From the NCBI RefSeq assembly GCF_001463765.1, contig NZ_BBWK01000034.1:1-64000 (forward strand): a stretch of 64,000 nt of DNA, in the 5' to 3' direction. This stretch comes from Aureimonas sp. AU4 (lineage in GTDB: Bacteria; Pseudomonadota; Alphaproteobacteria; Rhizobiales; Rhizobiaceae). The notes below the pieces were generated by a model, which saw only the letters and a program-made list of their open reading frames with translations, ran no database searches and was not told the DNA's origin. Positions 3,120 to 7,971 of the stretch are shown in pieces; positions within the stretch are counted from its first letter, which is position 1; every line of letters starts with the position of its first letter. The position numbers were made by a program, and so were the translations under genes.

Positions 3120-6044
3120 TCAGTGCGCCTCGTCCCAGTTATGCGCCGCGCGCGCCTCGACGACGAGGGGCACGGAGAGGTCTAGGACGGGTTCGGCGGC
3201 GGTCTCCATGACGTGGCGGATCAGCGGGATGGTGGCCTCCACCTCCTCGTCCGGCACCTCGAAGACGAGCTCGTCGTGGACCTGCAGGAGCATGCGGGCG
3301 CCGAGGCGCTCCTTGGCGAGCGCCCCCTCCATGCGGACCATGGCGCGGCGGATGATGTCGGCGGCGGTGCCCTGGATCGGCGCGTTGACGGCGGCGCGCT
3401 CGTTGAAGGCGCGCACCTGCGGGTTCGACGCCTTGATGTCGGGATAGTGCGCGCGGCGCCCGAACAGCGTCTCGACGTAGCCGCGCTCCTTCGCGCCCTG
3501 CTTCACGCGGTCCATGTAGTCGCGGATGCCGGGGAAACGCTCGAAGTAGCGCTTGATGTAGGCGCCGGCCTCGCTTTGCGGGATGGTGAGCTGGGCGGCG
3601 AGGCCGAAGGCAGAGATGCCGTAGATGATGCCGAAGTTGATGGTCTTGGCGCGTCGCCGGATGTCGGCGGGCATCTTGTCCACTGGCACGCCGAACATCT
3701 CGGCCGCGGTCGCGGCGTGGATGTCCTGCCCCTCGCGGAAGGCCTGTATCAGCGAGGGGATCTGCGACATGTGGGCGAGAAGACGCAGTTCGATCTGCGA
3801 GTAGTCGGCCGAGACCAGCTGGTAGCCGGAGGCCGCCACGAAGGCGGTGCGGATCTCGCGGCCCTCCTCCGTGCGGATCGGGATGTTCTGGAGGTTCGGG
3901 TCGGAGGAGGAAAGGCGCCCGGTCGTGGTCGAGGCCATGGAATAGGACGTGTGGATGCGATCCTGCTCGTCCATGAAGGTCGGCAGCGCGTCGGCGTAGT
4001 TGTTCTTGAGGCGCGTGATCTGGCGCCAGTCGACGATCCGTCGTGGCAGCTCGTGCCCCTGCGAGGCGAGGTCTTCCAGGAGCTTGGCGTCGGTGGCCCA
4101 CTGGCCGGTGCGGGTCTTCTTTCCGCCCGGCAGGCCGAGCTTGCCGAAGAGGACGTCGCCGAGCTGCTTGGGGCTGCCGATGTTGAAGGGCTCGCCGGCC
4201 AGGATGTGGATGTCGGCCTCGAGGCCCGCCGCCTTCTGCGCGAAGCGCCCCGAAAGGCGCGACAGGATCTGCCGGTCGACGCGGATGCCGCGCTCCTCCA
4301 TGCGCGCCAGCACCGGCACGAGCGGGCGCTCGAGGCGCTCGTAGACATGGAGCAGGCTCTCGGCGACGAGGCGGGGCTTGAGGGCGCGCCACAGGCGCAG
4401 CGTCACGTCGGCATCCTCGGCGGCGTATTCCGTTACGCGCTCGATGGGAACGCTGGCGATCGGCTTCATCGCGCGGCCCGAGCCGCAGAGCTCCTTGTAG
4501 GAGATGGGCTTGTGGCCGAGGAAGCGCTCGGACAGCTCGTCCATGCCGTGGCCGTCCAGCGAGGACGAGGCGTCGAGCACGTAGGAGATCAGCATCGTGT
4601 CGTCGAGCGGCGCGATCTCGACGCCGTGCCGGCGCATCACGAGGTAGTCGTACTTGGCGTTCTGCGCGACCTTGAGGATCGCGGGGTCCTCCAGGAGCGG
4701 CTTCAGGAGGTCGAGCACGCGCCCGAGCGGGATCTGCGGGCCGACCCCTTCGCCCTCCCGCTCGCCGAGAAGGTCGCCGTGCCCCTCGCCGACATGCGCG
4801 ATCGGCACGTAGGCGGCCTCGTTGGGGGCCACCGCCAGGCTCAGACCGACGATCTCGGCGCGCATGGCGTCGAGCGCGGTGGTCTCGGTGTCGAAGGCGA
4901 CGACGCCCTCCTCGGTCGCCCGGCGGATCCAGTAGGCGAGGCGCGCCTCGTCGCGCACGGTCTCGTAGCGCGAGCGGTCCACCTCCTGCGCGGCGGCTTC
5001 GGCGAGGCGCGCCTGCGCATGGGCGGCGGGGGAGAGTTCGAGATTGCCCGCGCGAGCACCCGTAGCGGCGGCCGGGCCCGCGTCGAGGTCGGGGCCCCGC
5101 GGAGCGGCCTCCACCTCGACCTTGGCGGCGGGCACCTCGGCGATGTCGGTGCCGAGCTTGGCCGAGACGCGACGCGTCAGCGTCGTGAACTCCATCGCCT
5201 TCAGGAAGGCGACGAGCTTCTCGCCGTCGGGCTCGTGGATGAAGAGGTCGTCGAGCTCCTCGCCGTCCACCATCGGGACGTTCTGATCGAGCGTCACGAG
5301 GCGCTTGGAGAGCCGCGCCTGTTCCGCGTTGGCCTCGATCACCTCTCGGCGCTTCTGCTGCTTGATCTCGCTCGTGCGCTCCAGCAGCGCCTCCAGCGTG
5401 CCGAACTGCTCGAGGAGGCCGGCGGCGGTCTTGGGCCCGATGCCGGGCACGCCCGGCACGTTGTCGGAACTGTCGCCGACCAGCGCCTGCAGGTCGATCA
5501 TCTTGTCGGGATAGACGCCGAACTTCTCGAAGACCTCCTGGGCGCCCAGGCGCTTGTCCTTCATCTGGTCGTAGAGCGTGACGCCGGGCCCCACGAGCTG
5601 CATCAGGTCCTTGTCGGAGGAGACGATCGTGACGTCGCCGCCCGCTTCCACGGCGAGGCGCGTATAGGTCGCGATCAGGTCGTCGGCCTCGAAGCCCTGG
5701 CGCTCGACGCAGGGCAGGTCGAAGGCGCGCACGGCGTCGCGGATCAGCGAGAACTGCGGGCGCAGGTCCTCCGGGGGCGCGGCGCGATTGGCCTTGTAGT
5801 CGCCGTAGAGTTCGTTGCGGAACGTCGTCGAGGAGTGATCGAAGATCACCGCGAAGTGGGTGGGCGCGACGCCGACCTGCGTCTCGCGCGCCTCCTCGAC
5901 GAGCTTCCACAGCATGTTGCAGAAGCCCGCCACCGCGCCGACCGGCAGACCGTCGCTCTTGCGGGTCAGCGGCGGCAGCGCGTGATAGGCGCGGAAGATG
6001 TAGGCCGAGCCATCGACCAGGAAGAGATGATCGCCTTTTTGCAT
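3120..6044 (-). CDS. polA: DNA polymerase I
   Basis: A 974-residue family A polymerase for Okazaki fragment maturation and gap repair. The N-terminal 290 residues are the 5'-3' exonuclease (LFLVDGSAYIFRAYHAL, GIGPKTA). The 3'-5' exonuclease looks intact: AFDTETTALD, QNAKYDYL and YAAEDADVT keep the acidic metal ligands, so proofreading is expected. The polymerase domain shows motif A (SADYSQIELRLLAH), motif B (RRRAKTINFGIIYG) and motif C (QVHDELVFE). I set the start at ATG 6044 (MQKGDHLFLVDG) because the family begins there; upstream in-frame codons read as low-complexity. Its start faces the candidate sRNA promoter across a divergent spacer. Confidence 0.97.
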   Translation of the reverse strand: MQKGDHLFLVDGSAYIFRAYHALPPLTRKSDGLPVGAVAGFCNMLWKLVEEARETQVGVAPTHFAVIFDHSSTTFRNELYGDYKANRAAPPEDLRPQFSLIRDAVRAFDLPCVERQGFEADDLIATYTRLAVEAGGDVTIVSSDKDLMQLVGPGVTLYDQMKDKRLGAQEVFEKFGVYPDKMIDLQALVGDSSDNVPGVPGIGPKTAAGLLEQFGTLEALLERTSEIKQQKRREVIEANAEQARLSKRLVTLDQNVPMVDGEELDDLFIHEPDGEKLVAFLKAMEFTTLTRRVSAKLGTDIAEVPAAKVEVEAAPRGPDLDAGPAAATGARAGNLELSPAAHAQARLAEAAAQEVDRSRYETVRDEARLAYWIRRATEEGVVAFDTETTALDAMRAEIVGLSLAVAPNEAAYVPIAHVGEGHGDLLGEREGEGVGPQIPLGRVLDLLKPLLEDPAILKVAQNAKYDYLVMRRHGVEIAPLDDTMLISYVLDASSSLDGHGMDELSERFLGHKPISYKELCGSGRAMKPIASVPIERVTEYAAEDADVTLRLWRALKPRLVAESLLHVYERLERPLVPVLARMEERGIRVDRQILSRLSGRFAQKAAGLEADIHILAGEPFNIGSPKQLGDVLFGKLGLPGGKKTRTGQWATDAKLLEDLASQGHELPRRIVDWRQITRLKNNYADALPTFMDEQDRIHTSYSMASTTTGRLSSSDPNLQNIPIRTEEGREIRTAFVAASGYQLVSADYSQIELRLLAHMSQIPSLIQAFREGQDIHAATAAEMFGVPVDKMPADIRRRAKTINFGIIYGISAFGLAAQLTIPQSEAGAYIKRYFERFPGIRDYMDRVKQGAKERGYVETLFGRRAHYPDIKASNPQVRAFNERAAVNAPIQGTAADIIRRAMVRMEGALAKERLGARMLLQVHDELVFEVPDEEVEATIPLIRHVMETAAEPVLDLSVPLVVEARAAHNWDEAH

Positions 6045-6201
6045 GGGAAAGGTTGGTATCGCGGGGCGCGGAACCTGTCCACGGCAACCCGCCGAAGCCG
6101 GAGCAGCACCGGGATGGCAGGCGGCGACTGGGCAGCGAAAACGGTCGTCAAGGGGAGAGAAGCGACGCCGGATCGCCGACATTACAGAGGTTTAAGGTTC
6201 A

Positions 6202-6256
6202 GATCACGAAGCTGTGATCAGATCGCCTTGAACTTATTCGGGGGCAGGCGCATTTT
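6202..6256 (+). promoter_or_regulatory. Inverted repeat and promoter-like elements ahead of the sRNA
   Basis: GATCAC (6202-6207) and GTGATC (6214-6219) form a palindrome with a 6-bp spacer. CTTGAA (6227-6232) could serve as a -35 box, with a weak -10 candidate CATTTT (6251-6256). A palindrome just upstream of a -35 box fits an activator site, for example of a LysR-type regulator; LsrB/VtlR regulators are known to control AbcR sRNAs in relatives. The -10 match is poor, so the start of transcription is uncertain. Confidence 0.35.
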
Positions 6257-6262
6257 CTGCCC

Positions 6263-6420
6263 AACGACGCACGCAAAGAGGCGTCGCCTTCGGCCTAAAG
6301 CTTGTCCCCCGCTTTCGTGCCGAACGCTGAGCGGAAAGATCCCATCCCCCCTCTCGGGACATCCGCTCTATCAGAAGGAGCCGTCGCGACAACCCCCCTC
6401 CAGTCCGCGACGGCTCTTTT
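6263..6420 (+). ncRNA. abcR: AbcR/alpha-r15-like trans-acting sRNA with three C-rich loops
   Basis: No coding frame is evident here, yet the plus strand folds into three successive hairpins and ends at a strong terminator. Hairpin 1: AAAGC/GCTTT (6297-6315) with loop TTGTCCCCC. Hairpin 2: AGCGGA/TCCGCT (6330-6367) with an inner TCCC/GGGA stem and loop ATCCCCCCTCTC. Hairpin 3 is the terminator, whose loop includes CCCCCCTCC. Such loops can pair with Shine-Dalgarno sequences. From memory, the AbcR (alpha-r15) sRNAs of Sinorhizobium and Agrobacterium lie beside polA and repress ABC-transporter binding-protein mRNAs, so both structure and location fit. The 5' end is not defined; the minimal structured unit is 6297-6420. 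Confidence 0.72.
6378..6420 (+). terminator. Rho-independent terminator of the sRNA
   Basis: A perfect 11-bp stem, GAGCCGTCGCG (6378-6388) with CGCGACGGCTC (6406-6416), encloses a 17-nt loop and is followed by TTTT. No protein-coding gene lies upstream on this strand, which is the main reason for proposing an RNA gene here. Confidence 0.85.
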
Positions 6421-6573
6421 CTGTTTTCCTGCCTCGGCTTCTCCCCGTTTTCCACATGACCTGTTGTTTGTGCGCCACGCATCGCGCGGGTGGACCTGCG
6501 CGAGCCGGAAGGGCTATGGCCATGGTCGAAGCCCGCCCTTCGCGGCGGGCCGTCCCGCAGCCCGGATGATCCC
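6421..6573. other. Non-coding remainder between the sRNA terminator and the M20 peptidase
   Basis: I see no second sRNA copy, although relatives often carry two in tandem. A 7-bp hairpin GCCCGCC/GGCGGGC lies at 6531-6550, in what would be the leader of the peptidase mRNA. A GTG at 6490 opens the same frame as the peptidase but adds 28 residues that do not look like the family. Confidence 0.5.
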
Positions 6574-7971
6574 ATGGCCGACCTCGACAGCGTCCTTTCC
6601 TCCCTCGACCTGAACCTCGACCGCTCGGTGGAGCGTCTGCAGGCCCTCCTGCGCATCCCCTCGATCTCGACCGACCCGGCCTATGCGGCCGACTGCCGGC
6701 GCGCCGCCGAGTGGCTGCGCGGCGACCTCGAGGCGATCGGTTTCGAGGCGCGCGTCCACGACACGAAGGGCCATCCCATGGTGGTGGCGCGGCGCGAGGG
6801 ACCGGCCGGCTCGCCCAACGTCCTCTTCTACGGCCACTACGACGTGCAGCCGGTGGACCCGCTGGAGCTGTGGGATGCCGACCCGTTCGATCCGCGCGTC
6901 GTCGACGGGCCCGACGGCTCGCGCCGCATCACGGGACGCGGCTCGGCCGACGACAAGGGCCAGCTGATGACCTTCATCGAGGCGTGCCGCGCCTTCATCG
7001 CCGAGACCGGCGGCCTGCCCTGTTCGGTGACGATCTTCCTGGAGGGCGAGGAGGAGTCCGGCTCGCCCTCGCTCCTGCCCTTCCTCGACGCGCACCGCGA
7101 GGCTCTGCGGGCCGACGTCGCGCTGATCTGCGACACGAGCATGTGGGACAAGGACACGCCCGCCATCTCGACGGGGCTGCGCGGCCTCGTCGGCGAGGAG
7201 GTGACGATCCGCGCCGCCTCGATGGACCTTCATTCCGGCTATTTCGGCGGGGCGGCCGCCAACCCGATCACGGTTCTGGCGCGCATCATCGGTGATCTGC
7301 ACGACGCAGAGGGCCGCGTGACCCTGCCCGGCTTCTACGACGGCGTGCCGGAGCTGCCGGACGACGTGCGCCGGGTCTGGGACGAGCTGCCCTTCTCGCA
7401 GGACGCCTTTCTCGGACAGGTCGGCCTTTCCGTGCCCTTCGGCGAGAAGAACCGCTCGGTCCTCGAGCAGACCTGGTCGCGCCCGACCGCCGAGGTCAAT
7501 GGCATCGAGGGCGGCTACACGGGCAAGGGCTTCAAGACCGTGATCGCGGCCGAGGCCCATGCCAAGATCTCCTTCCGCCTCGTCTTCGACCAGGACCCGA
7601 CGGCGATCCGCGAGAGCTTCCGCCAGTTCGTGCGCGAGCGCCTGCCGGCCGACTGCCGCGCCGAGTTCCACGAGCACGGCGGCTCGCCGGCGATCCAGCT
7701 GCCCTTCGATTCGCCGGTGCTGGAGACGGCCCGCGAGGCGCTGTCGGCCGAGTGGCCGAACAAGGCGGTGATGATCGGCATGGGCGGCTCGATCCCGGTG
7801 GTGGGCGAGTTCAAGCGCCGGCTCGGCATGCCATCATTGCTGGTCGGCTTCGGCCTGGCAGACGACCGCATCCACTCGCCCAACGAAAAGTACGAGATGC
7901 GCTCCTTCGCCAAGGGCCAGCGCTCCTGGGCGCGCATCCTGGCGGCGCTGGGCGAGCGGGGGACCGCGTGA
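6574..7971 (+). CDS. M20-family metallopeptidase (dipeptidase-like)
   Basis: This 465-residue cytoplasmic hydrolase belongs to the M20/M25/M40 zinc peptidases, close to the dipeptidase (carnosinase-like) branch. FYGHYDVQP carries the first metal ligand His88 and catalytic Asp90; GRGSADDKGQ (about residue 126) gives the bridging Asp; EGEEESGSP (157-162) holds the general-base Glu and a metal Glu. The dimerisation or lid domain sits in the middle. I start at ATG 6574 (MADLDSVLSSLDLNLDRSV). The last base of its final sense codon begins the GTG of the next small ORF. The actual peptide substrate is not known. Confidence 0.92.
   Translation: MADLDSVLSSLDLNLDRSVERLQALLRIPSISTDPAYAADCRRAAEWLRGDLEAIGFEARVHDTKGHPMVVARREGPAGSPNVLFYGHYDVQPVDPLELWDADPFDPRVVDGPDGSRRITGRGSADDKGQLMTFIEACRAFIAETGGLPCSVTIFLEGEEESGSPSLLPFLDAHREALRADVALICDTSMWDKDTPAISTGLRGLVGEEVTIRAASMDLHSGYFGGAAANPITVLARIIGDLHDAEGRVTLPGFYDGVPELPDDVRRVWDELPFSQDAFLGQVGLSVPFGEKNRSVLEQTWSRPTAEVNGIEGGYTGKGFKTVIAAEAHAKISFRLVFDQDPTAIRESFRQFVRERLPADCRAEFHEHGGSPAIQLPFDSPVLETAREALSAEWPNKAVMIGMGGSIPVVGEFKRRLGMPSLLVGFGLADDRIHSPNEKYEMRSFAKGQRSWARILAALGERGTA

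Follow-up and report, generated by a model that had tools for sequence, protein, structure and literature searches.

The region upstream of polA in Aureimonas sp. AU4 almost certainly encodes the orthologue of the alpha-r7 sRNA (Smr7C/sra03/SmelC023), and the AU4 sRNA adds a member to this known family. The gene occupies positions 6262–6424 on the plus strand of the window, the 64,000-nucleotide stretch of contig NZ_BBWK01000034.1 that we analyzed, and was delineated by a match to the Rfam model RF02342, by a covariance model free of sequences from the genus (R1), and by DNA matches within the genus. A permissive search of positions 6050–6600 with RF02342 (ar7) yielded a match at 6262–6419 that spans model positions 1–145 of 145, with a score of 46 bits and an E-value of 8e-8. 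In the genome-wide search the same match (E 1.5e-7) was the sole one listed at E ≤0.01, and DNA similarity at E ≤0.01 likewise indicated a single copy. In the alignment to the model, the element shows the loops of the ar7 consensus, namely GUCCCCCGC, AUCCCCC-CUCUC and CCCCUCC.

Applying the Rfam gathering thresholds to the whole 64-kb window gave no match. The gathering score of RF02342 is 60 bits, which is a curation line and not a biological trait; in the wider family 37 of 61 genomes pass it, as does a single one of the 21 genus members (L019, 66.8 bits), the others, AU4 included, falling below because their stems have drifted far. The shortfall of AU4 looks like a reflection of this divergence. 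The model R1 was built from 35 family sequences, none of them from the genus, comprising all but L066 and L068 of the 37 matches above the gathering score, and was searched against the AU4 locus and 40 further loci. Its score was 58.0 bits (E 1.2e-12) for the AU4 element and ranged over 58.7–78.8 bits for the remaining 20 loci of the genus. R1 also assigned 22.8–39.7 bits to L083–L085 and L087–L089, which are weak second matches in relatives, and since ar14-like RNAs are thus matched at up to 39.7 bits, R1 scores below 40 are not decisive. With RF02342 at E ≤0.01, one of 14 control genomes was matched and none exceeded the cut-off; together with the ar14 cross-matches this indicates that weak scores alone prove little.

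The predicted transcript starts at 6262 and ends within the T run at about 6417–6424. Its first element is a 5′ hairpin of variable length at about 6266–6285, evident from the fold and the alignment (helix 1) and located 5′ of the three hairpins that a sequence-only reading of this DNA had noticed. The inner stem of hairpin 1 covers 6297–6315 and presents the loop TTGTCCCCC at 6302–6310, closed by an AAAGC/GCTTT stem in both sequence and fold, and the inner stem of hairpin 2 covers 6340–6359 with the loop ATCCCCCCTCTC at 6344–6355. Hairpin 3 (6374–6424) is the intrinsic terminator: it carries CCCCCCTCC in its loop and has an 11-bp core stem, formed by GAGCCGTCGCG (6378–6388) and CGCGACGGCTC (6406–6416), followed by TTTTCTGTTTT. 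Sequence and fold thereby confirm the three hairpins with C-rich loops, the 11-bp stem and the T run where they had been described on the plus strand.

On the minus strand polA (3120–6044; Pfam DNA_pol_A, 5_3_exonuc_N and others) is the divergent neighbor, its start lying 218 bases from the sRNA, and downstream on the plus strand follows a gene for an M20 family peptidase (6574–7971; Pfam Peptidase_M20, M20_dimer); the starts at 6044 and 6574 were picked by eye from the translations. The terminator at 6378–6424 is an orphan, because polA runs away on the minus strand and the next plus-strand gene only begins near 6574, so that the positions of both genes agree with the earlier statement that no protein gene explains it. 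A consensus scan of 6000–6700 reported no terminator, the scanner ignoring loops longer than 8 bases, and no sigma-70 promoter.

We assessed the stability of the fold for the 166 nucleotides at 6260–6425. The plus strand folds with −69.8 kcal/mol compared to −45.9 ± 3.9 kcal/mol for dinucleotide-shuffled sequences (z −6.15), and none of 200 shuffles reached its energy. An alignment of 37 Aurantimonadaceae-type sequences (21 from the genus and 16 others; 36 distinct) supports this fold: imposing the AU4 structure left 80.9% of cells paired compared to 38.8–47.7% for slid versions, and double-sided changes occurred in 23 of 49 pairs, amounting to 56 such cells versus 26.7 after shuffling. In the terminator hairpin (helix 7), 92.3% of cells were paired and 9 of 18 pairs had changed on both sides. 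Weaker values were obtained for the 5′ hairpin (69.7%), for helix 2 (44.1%), for helix 4, which is a single pair (60.6%), and for hairpin 2 in its outer part (61.9%), a stretch over which the sequence alignment slips. For the 35 family sequences outside the genus, 98.4% of cells were paired, 20 of 28 pairs had changed on both sides and the covariation score was 0.414 versus 0.217 for shuffled data, the structure tested having been derived from this same alignment. One of five measures in this set, the number of further pair types, did not rise above the shuffles, 113 of 500 reaching its value.

The loops show the opposite behavior to the stems. GTCCCCCGC in hairpin 1 is present in 37/37 aligned sequences, and the C stretches are predicted to be unpaired with a mean probability of at least 0.9 for loop 1 and with at least 0.95 for loop 2 in 36/37 sequences each, and with at least 0.9 for loop 3 in 35/37. 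The low exceptions are L121 for loops 1 and 2 and L077 and L119 for loop 3. Across the 37 sequences the loops thus remain fixed and unpaired while the stem sequences drift, which is the pattern expected of an RNA that acts by loop pairing. The earlier proposal of the C-rich loops as likely pairing sites is upheld to the extent that the folding model predicts them to be exposed.

Searching by DNA similarity, we found the 281-bp region in 21/21 genomes of the genus (AU4 and 20 further ones), in one copy each, and in none of 20 other genomes. RF02342 at E ≤0.01 matched 51 of 61 family genomes, 45 of them once and six with a second, weak match of 25.9–34.3 bits. The expectation that relatives often carry two copies is therefore inapplicable to this RNA, as the pair belongs to AbcR. 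Three of these second matches, those of G094, G095 and G068 (loci L083, L084 and L085), form hairpin rows with CCTCCTCCC loops and probably represent ar14/NfeR1-type RNAs. An order-level search of 150 genomes with RF02342 under strict filters (E ≤0.001) was positive in five, every one of the same family.

Most of the matches are linked to polA. Among 71 genomes with both a match and a located polA (21 genus members, whose positions except for AU4 were taken from the ends of DNA matches, and 50 others), the sRNA is divergent from polA within 1 kb in 63, including 21/21 of the genus; of the eight exceptions, three lie at 1.0–2.1 kb from polA and five elsewhere. At named polA loci, 71 of 80 were matched at E ≤0.001, in every case on the strand opposite to polA and upstream of that gene, with weak scores of 26 bits at L163 and L171 and an extra weak match on the other strand at L152. 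All 17 loci named Aureimonas, Aurantimonas, Jiella, Mangrovicella or Antarcticirhabdus (L115–L131) were matched, A. glaciei (L121) and A. leprariae (L123) being counted outside the 21 genus genomes searched. NCBI places Aureimonas in the family Aurantimonadaceae. These data extend the range of alpha-r7 to Aureimonas and its sister genera, where 20 of 21 tested members of the genus score under the Rfam cut-off.

The polA-linked relative in S. meliloti lies between polA and SMc02851 and has been described as candidate C7, sra03 and SmelC023. A 2011 survey counts 29 relatives, spread over the Rhizobiaceae, Brucellaceae and Phyllobacteriaceae, which with a single exception adjoin the DNA polymerase I gene, and describes four hairpins with conserved loops and varying stems. 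SmrC7 is reported as a free RNA of about 150 nt; on Northern blots it appeared as a short RNA with the probe for one strand only, and its level was about 13-fold up in nodules; in the reported experiment with tagged Hfq it was not detected, the authors allowing for binding that is too weak. The AU4 element shares with the S. meliloti alpha-r7 the divergent locus adjoining polA and the four hairpins with a variable 5′ hairpin, as well as the GUCCCCC and CCCCCUCUC loops, the C-rich terminator loop and one match per genome. It differs in its length (158 versus 145 model positions), in its drifted stems, and in the downstream gene, which encodes an M20 peptidase in AU4 versus the MarR-type gene described for Rhizobiaceae. 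Among the papers listed by the literature search, which covered little of the subscription literature, none reported an alpha-r7 RNA in Aureimonas; one of them mentions the genus, solely where it tabulates the relatives of an sRNA from Paracoccus.

Immediately upstream of the element, CTTGAA-N17-GCATTT at 6227–6255 on the plus strand resembles a promoter. Its general form, (C/A/T)TTG(A/T)(A/T)-N17-nCAnnT, which was defined after viewing the sequences, occurs at 33 of the 37 loci of Aurantimonadaceae type and at 36 of the 41 loci from the rest of the family (69/78 in total), compared to 0.27/37 and 0.31/41 in shuffled upstream regions. The first box reads CTTGAA, ATTGAA, CTTGAT or CTTGTT, and L123 is among the loci without the motif. 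The site mostly ends 6 bases before the model start, and 6 nt before the element in AU4, so that this conserved position makes 6262 the likely 5′ end of the sRNA. The −10 box GCATTT is a loose fit to both RpoH and sigma-70 promoters. In the sources available, the S. meliloti RpoH1 promoter is quoted as CTTGAA-N15-16-CCTATAT and a review table assigns SmelC023 to RpoD and RpoH1/2; a table in the 2007 sra03 paper lists neither a sigma-70 nor a sigma-54 promoter for that sRNA. A heat-shock-type promoter for the AU4 sRNA is plausible.

Further upstream, the inverted repeat ATCACGAAGCTGTGAT at 6203–6218, which contains the palindrome TCACG-N4-(C/T)GTGA at 6204–6217, is a candidate operator between the putative divergent promoters of polA and the sRNA, and may serve polA, the sRNA, or both. 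With at most one mismatch, the TCACG/CGTGA repeat was found at 32 of 37 loci (21/21 in the genus and 11/16 others; 0.45/37 in shuffles), L121 being one of those lacking it. Of the 21 genus genomes, 17 have the exact ATCACGNNNNYGTGAT at this position; a further 16 occurrences elsewhere are spread over 10 of them. A more far-reaching scheme, which we regard as improbable, is that alpha-r7 in Aurantimonadaceae-like genomes would be an anti-Shine-Dalgarno sRNA driven by a stress promoter and sharing its palindromic operator with polA, such that one regulator would couple the supply of DNA polymerase I to a broad translational repression.

The element could in principle act only in cis, as a leader or terminator of the neighboring genes without any free sRNA. 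Its location between two genes would fit this reading, as would the palindrome, which could be polA's, and the minus strand, which also folds better than shuffled sequences (z −2.87, 2/200 shuffles equally good). We nevertheless consider it very unlikely, as polA is encoded on the opposite strand and reads in the direction leading away from the element, the conserved promoter-like site ends 6 nt before it, a T run follows the stem on the plus strand only (by eye), and the S. meliloti relative is reported as a short RNA from one strand. The part of the sequence-only reading that proposed a free-standing rhizobial alpha-r-type sRNA gene adjoining polA stands; the AbcR family name that it attached does not.

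According to that name the polA-linked element would be an AbcR/alpha-r15 sRNA repressing ABC-transporter mRNAs, an interpretation that would suit its C-rich, anti-Shine-Dalgarno-like loops, its alphaproteobacterial host, and the 45 of 61 family genomes matched by the alpha-r15 model RF02345 at E ≤0.001. When this model was run as the reading had proposed, however, it found no match at the element at E ≤10 in 6050–6600, where RF02342 matches over its full length, and the loops and the order of the hairpins fit RF02342. The best RF02345 match in the AU4 genome lies elsewhere (20.4 bits, E 0.15), and at E ≤1 this model also matched 8 of 14 control genomes. The AU4 match is located just behind what reads as the end of a ribosomal protein S9 gene, and we take it to be the terminator of that putative gene. 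The genomic context differs as well: in S. meliloti, AbcR1 and AbcR2 are described in tandem between SMc01226 (ArsR) and lsrB and not next to polA, the polA-linked family being alpha-r7, and at L091 two tandem ar15 copies adjoin a LysR gene. AbcR1/2 are rhizobial trans-sRNAs with an anti-Shine-Dalgarno motif, as is proposed for the AU4 RNA, and differ from it in their ArsR/lsrB locus, tandem copies and reported stabilization by Hfq. Taken together, these findings leave the AbcR identity scarcely credible, and we found no support for a repression of ABC-transporter mRNAs by the polA-linked RNA. The correction matters, as the AbcR name would have directed experiments to ABC transporters.

At E ≤0.001, RF02345 matched none of nine Aurantimonadaceae-like genomes (G000, G056, G058, G059, G063, G073, G077, G078 and G088), defined as the AU4 genome itself or a PolA stretch at least 82% identical to that of AU4, whereas 45 of the 52 other family genomes were matched, ten of these 52 being outside the PolA search. 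The lsrB-like gene of the AU4 genome, which encodes LysR domains, is on another contig (G000:C17:1309-2202). Beside it, in the position that AbcR genes occupy in S. meliloti, we observed a weak match to suhB/mmgR, which belongs to the Rfam clan that includes ar15 (L225 2365–2447, on G000:C17; 21.9 bits, E 1.1); a weak match to this clan beside an lsrB-like gene was also noted at L226 1307–1383. The suhB/mmgR match of G003 reaches 38.2 bits (E 7e-5, cut-off 41). The fold of the G003 match has a z of −3.88; that of the AU4 genome, with −0.48, does not stand out. A diverged AbcR-clan RNA, distinct from the polA-linked one, may thus reside at the AU4 lsrB-like gene.

An assignment of the element to alpha-r14 (NfeR1) or to a CcsR-type CCUCCUCCC RNA is equally hard to sustain. 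RF02344 does give the element 21.7 bits (E 0.063), against 13.1 bits from CcsR1, the hairpin row is similar, alpha-r14 likewise has hairpins with C-rich loops, and the ar7-trained R1 accepts such RNAs as outlined above. These scores are nevertheless far below that of RF02342 on the same bases, and the CCUCCUCCC loops of the alpha-r14 model consensus are absent from the element, though present in the weak second matches L083–L085. Chance hairpin formation, for which one might invoke the GC-rich region and the failure of the simple scanner to report a terminator or promoter, is practically ruled out by the 200 shuffles and by the covariation and conservation across the 37 and 35 sequences. Three further named sRNAs were rejected by their described locations or ranges: the EcpR1 gene adjoins divK-pleD (celR2) and rpmG, the GspR gene lies between SMc03844 and SMc03845, and PmaR is described as limited to Agrobacterium and a near Rhizobium.

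For the alpha-r7 orthologue, a trans-acting role, in which G-rich ribosome-binding regions of mRNAs are the pairing partners of its C-rich loops as in Xanthomonas sX13, is by analogy the most likely function. The sRNA would be transcribed from the site with CTTGAA at −35, resembling sigma-70 or heat-shock RpoH promoters, would terminate at hairpin 3 and would remain folded. Its exposed loops GUCCCCC, CCCCCCUCUC and CCCCCCUCC would then pair with G-rich stretches around the ribosome-binding sites of several mRNAs and lower their translation, probably without a need for Hfq. We judge this loop-pairing mechanism to be likely, and hold a slightly firmer view of the joint reading that combines an alpha-r7 orthologue with the proposed promoter, terminator and mechanism, which we rate as highly likely; confidence in the latter is reduced because the 2007 table has no promoter and because of the ar14 cross-matches. 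The conserved loops, the promoter-like site and the palindrome offer concrete points for mutation.

Enterobacterial Spot 42 is found downstream of polA and is not known to have C-rich loops. It has the polA locus in common with the AU4 RNA and is described as requiring Hfq. A further parallel is sX13, which is polA-linked, has three apical C-rich loops and represses mRNAs with G-rich motifs near their starts, its targets having been tested in Xanthomonas; its authors assume Hfq independence. The sX13 paper itself describes alpha-r7 as a polA-linked family with three stem-loops and C-rich motifs, but sX13 lies downstream of polA and, according to the same paper, has no sequence similarity to alpha-r7.

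Candidate targets were sought with the complements of the loops. No proven alpha-r7 target was found in the accessible portions of the literature, the 2007 sra03 paper pointing to the gene upstream of zapA. Among 13 genus loci with zapA, 12 of which were readable (L096 lacks a start), a GAGGGG-type stretch is present 313–340 bases before zapA in four (L101, L105, L102 and L108), and in L101 it directly precedes a start codon as read by eye. The pattern GAGAGGGGGN{0,14}ATG gave 67 hits in 20 of 21 genomes versus 19 for the reversed pattern, which is a weak control as the pattern itself is Shine-Dalgarno-like, and eight of the 67 hits are the sRNA gene itself. Among 30 loci from this search, a gene common to the pattern loci was confined to three close species. 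At L195, L196 and L197, from three closely related members of the genus, the loop-2 complement GAGAGGGGG is separated by seven bases from the start of one and the same 501-residue protein, which appears by eye to carry a signal-peptide-like sequence and is a possible target.
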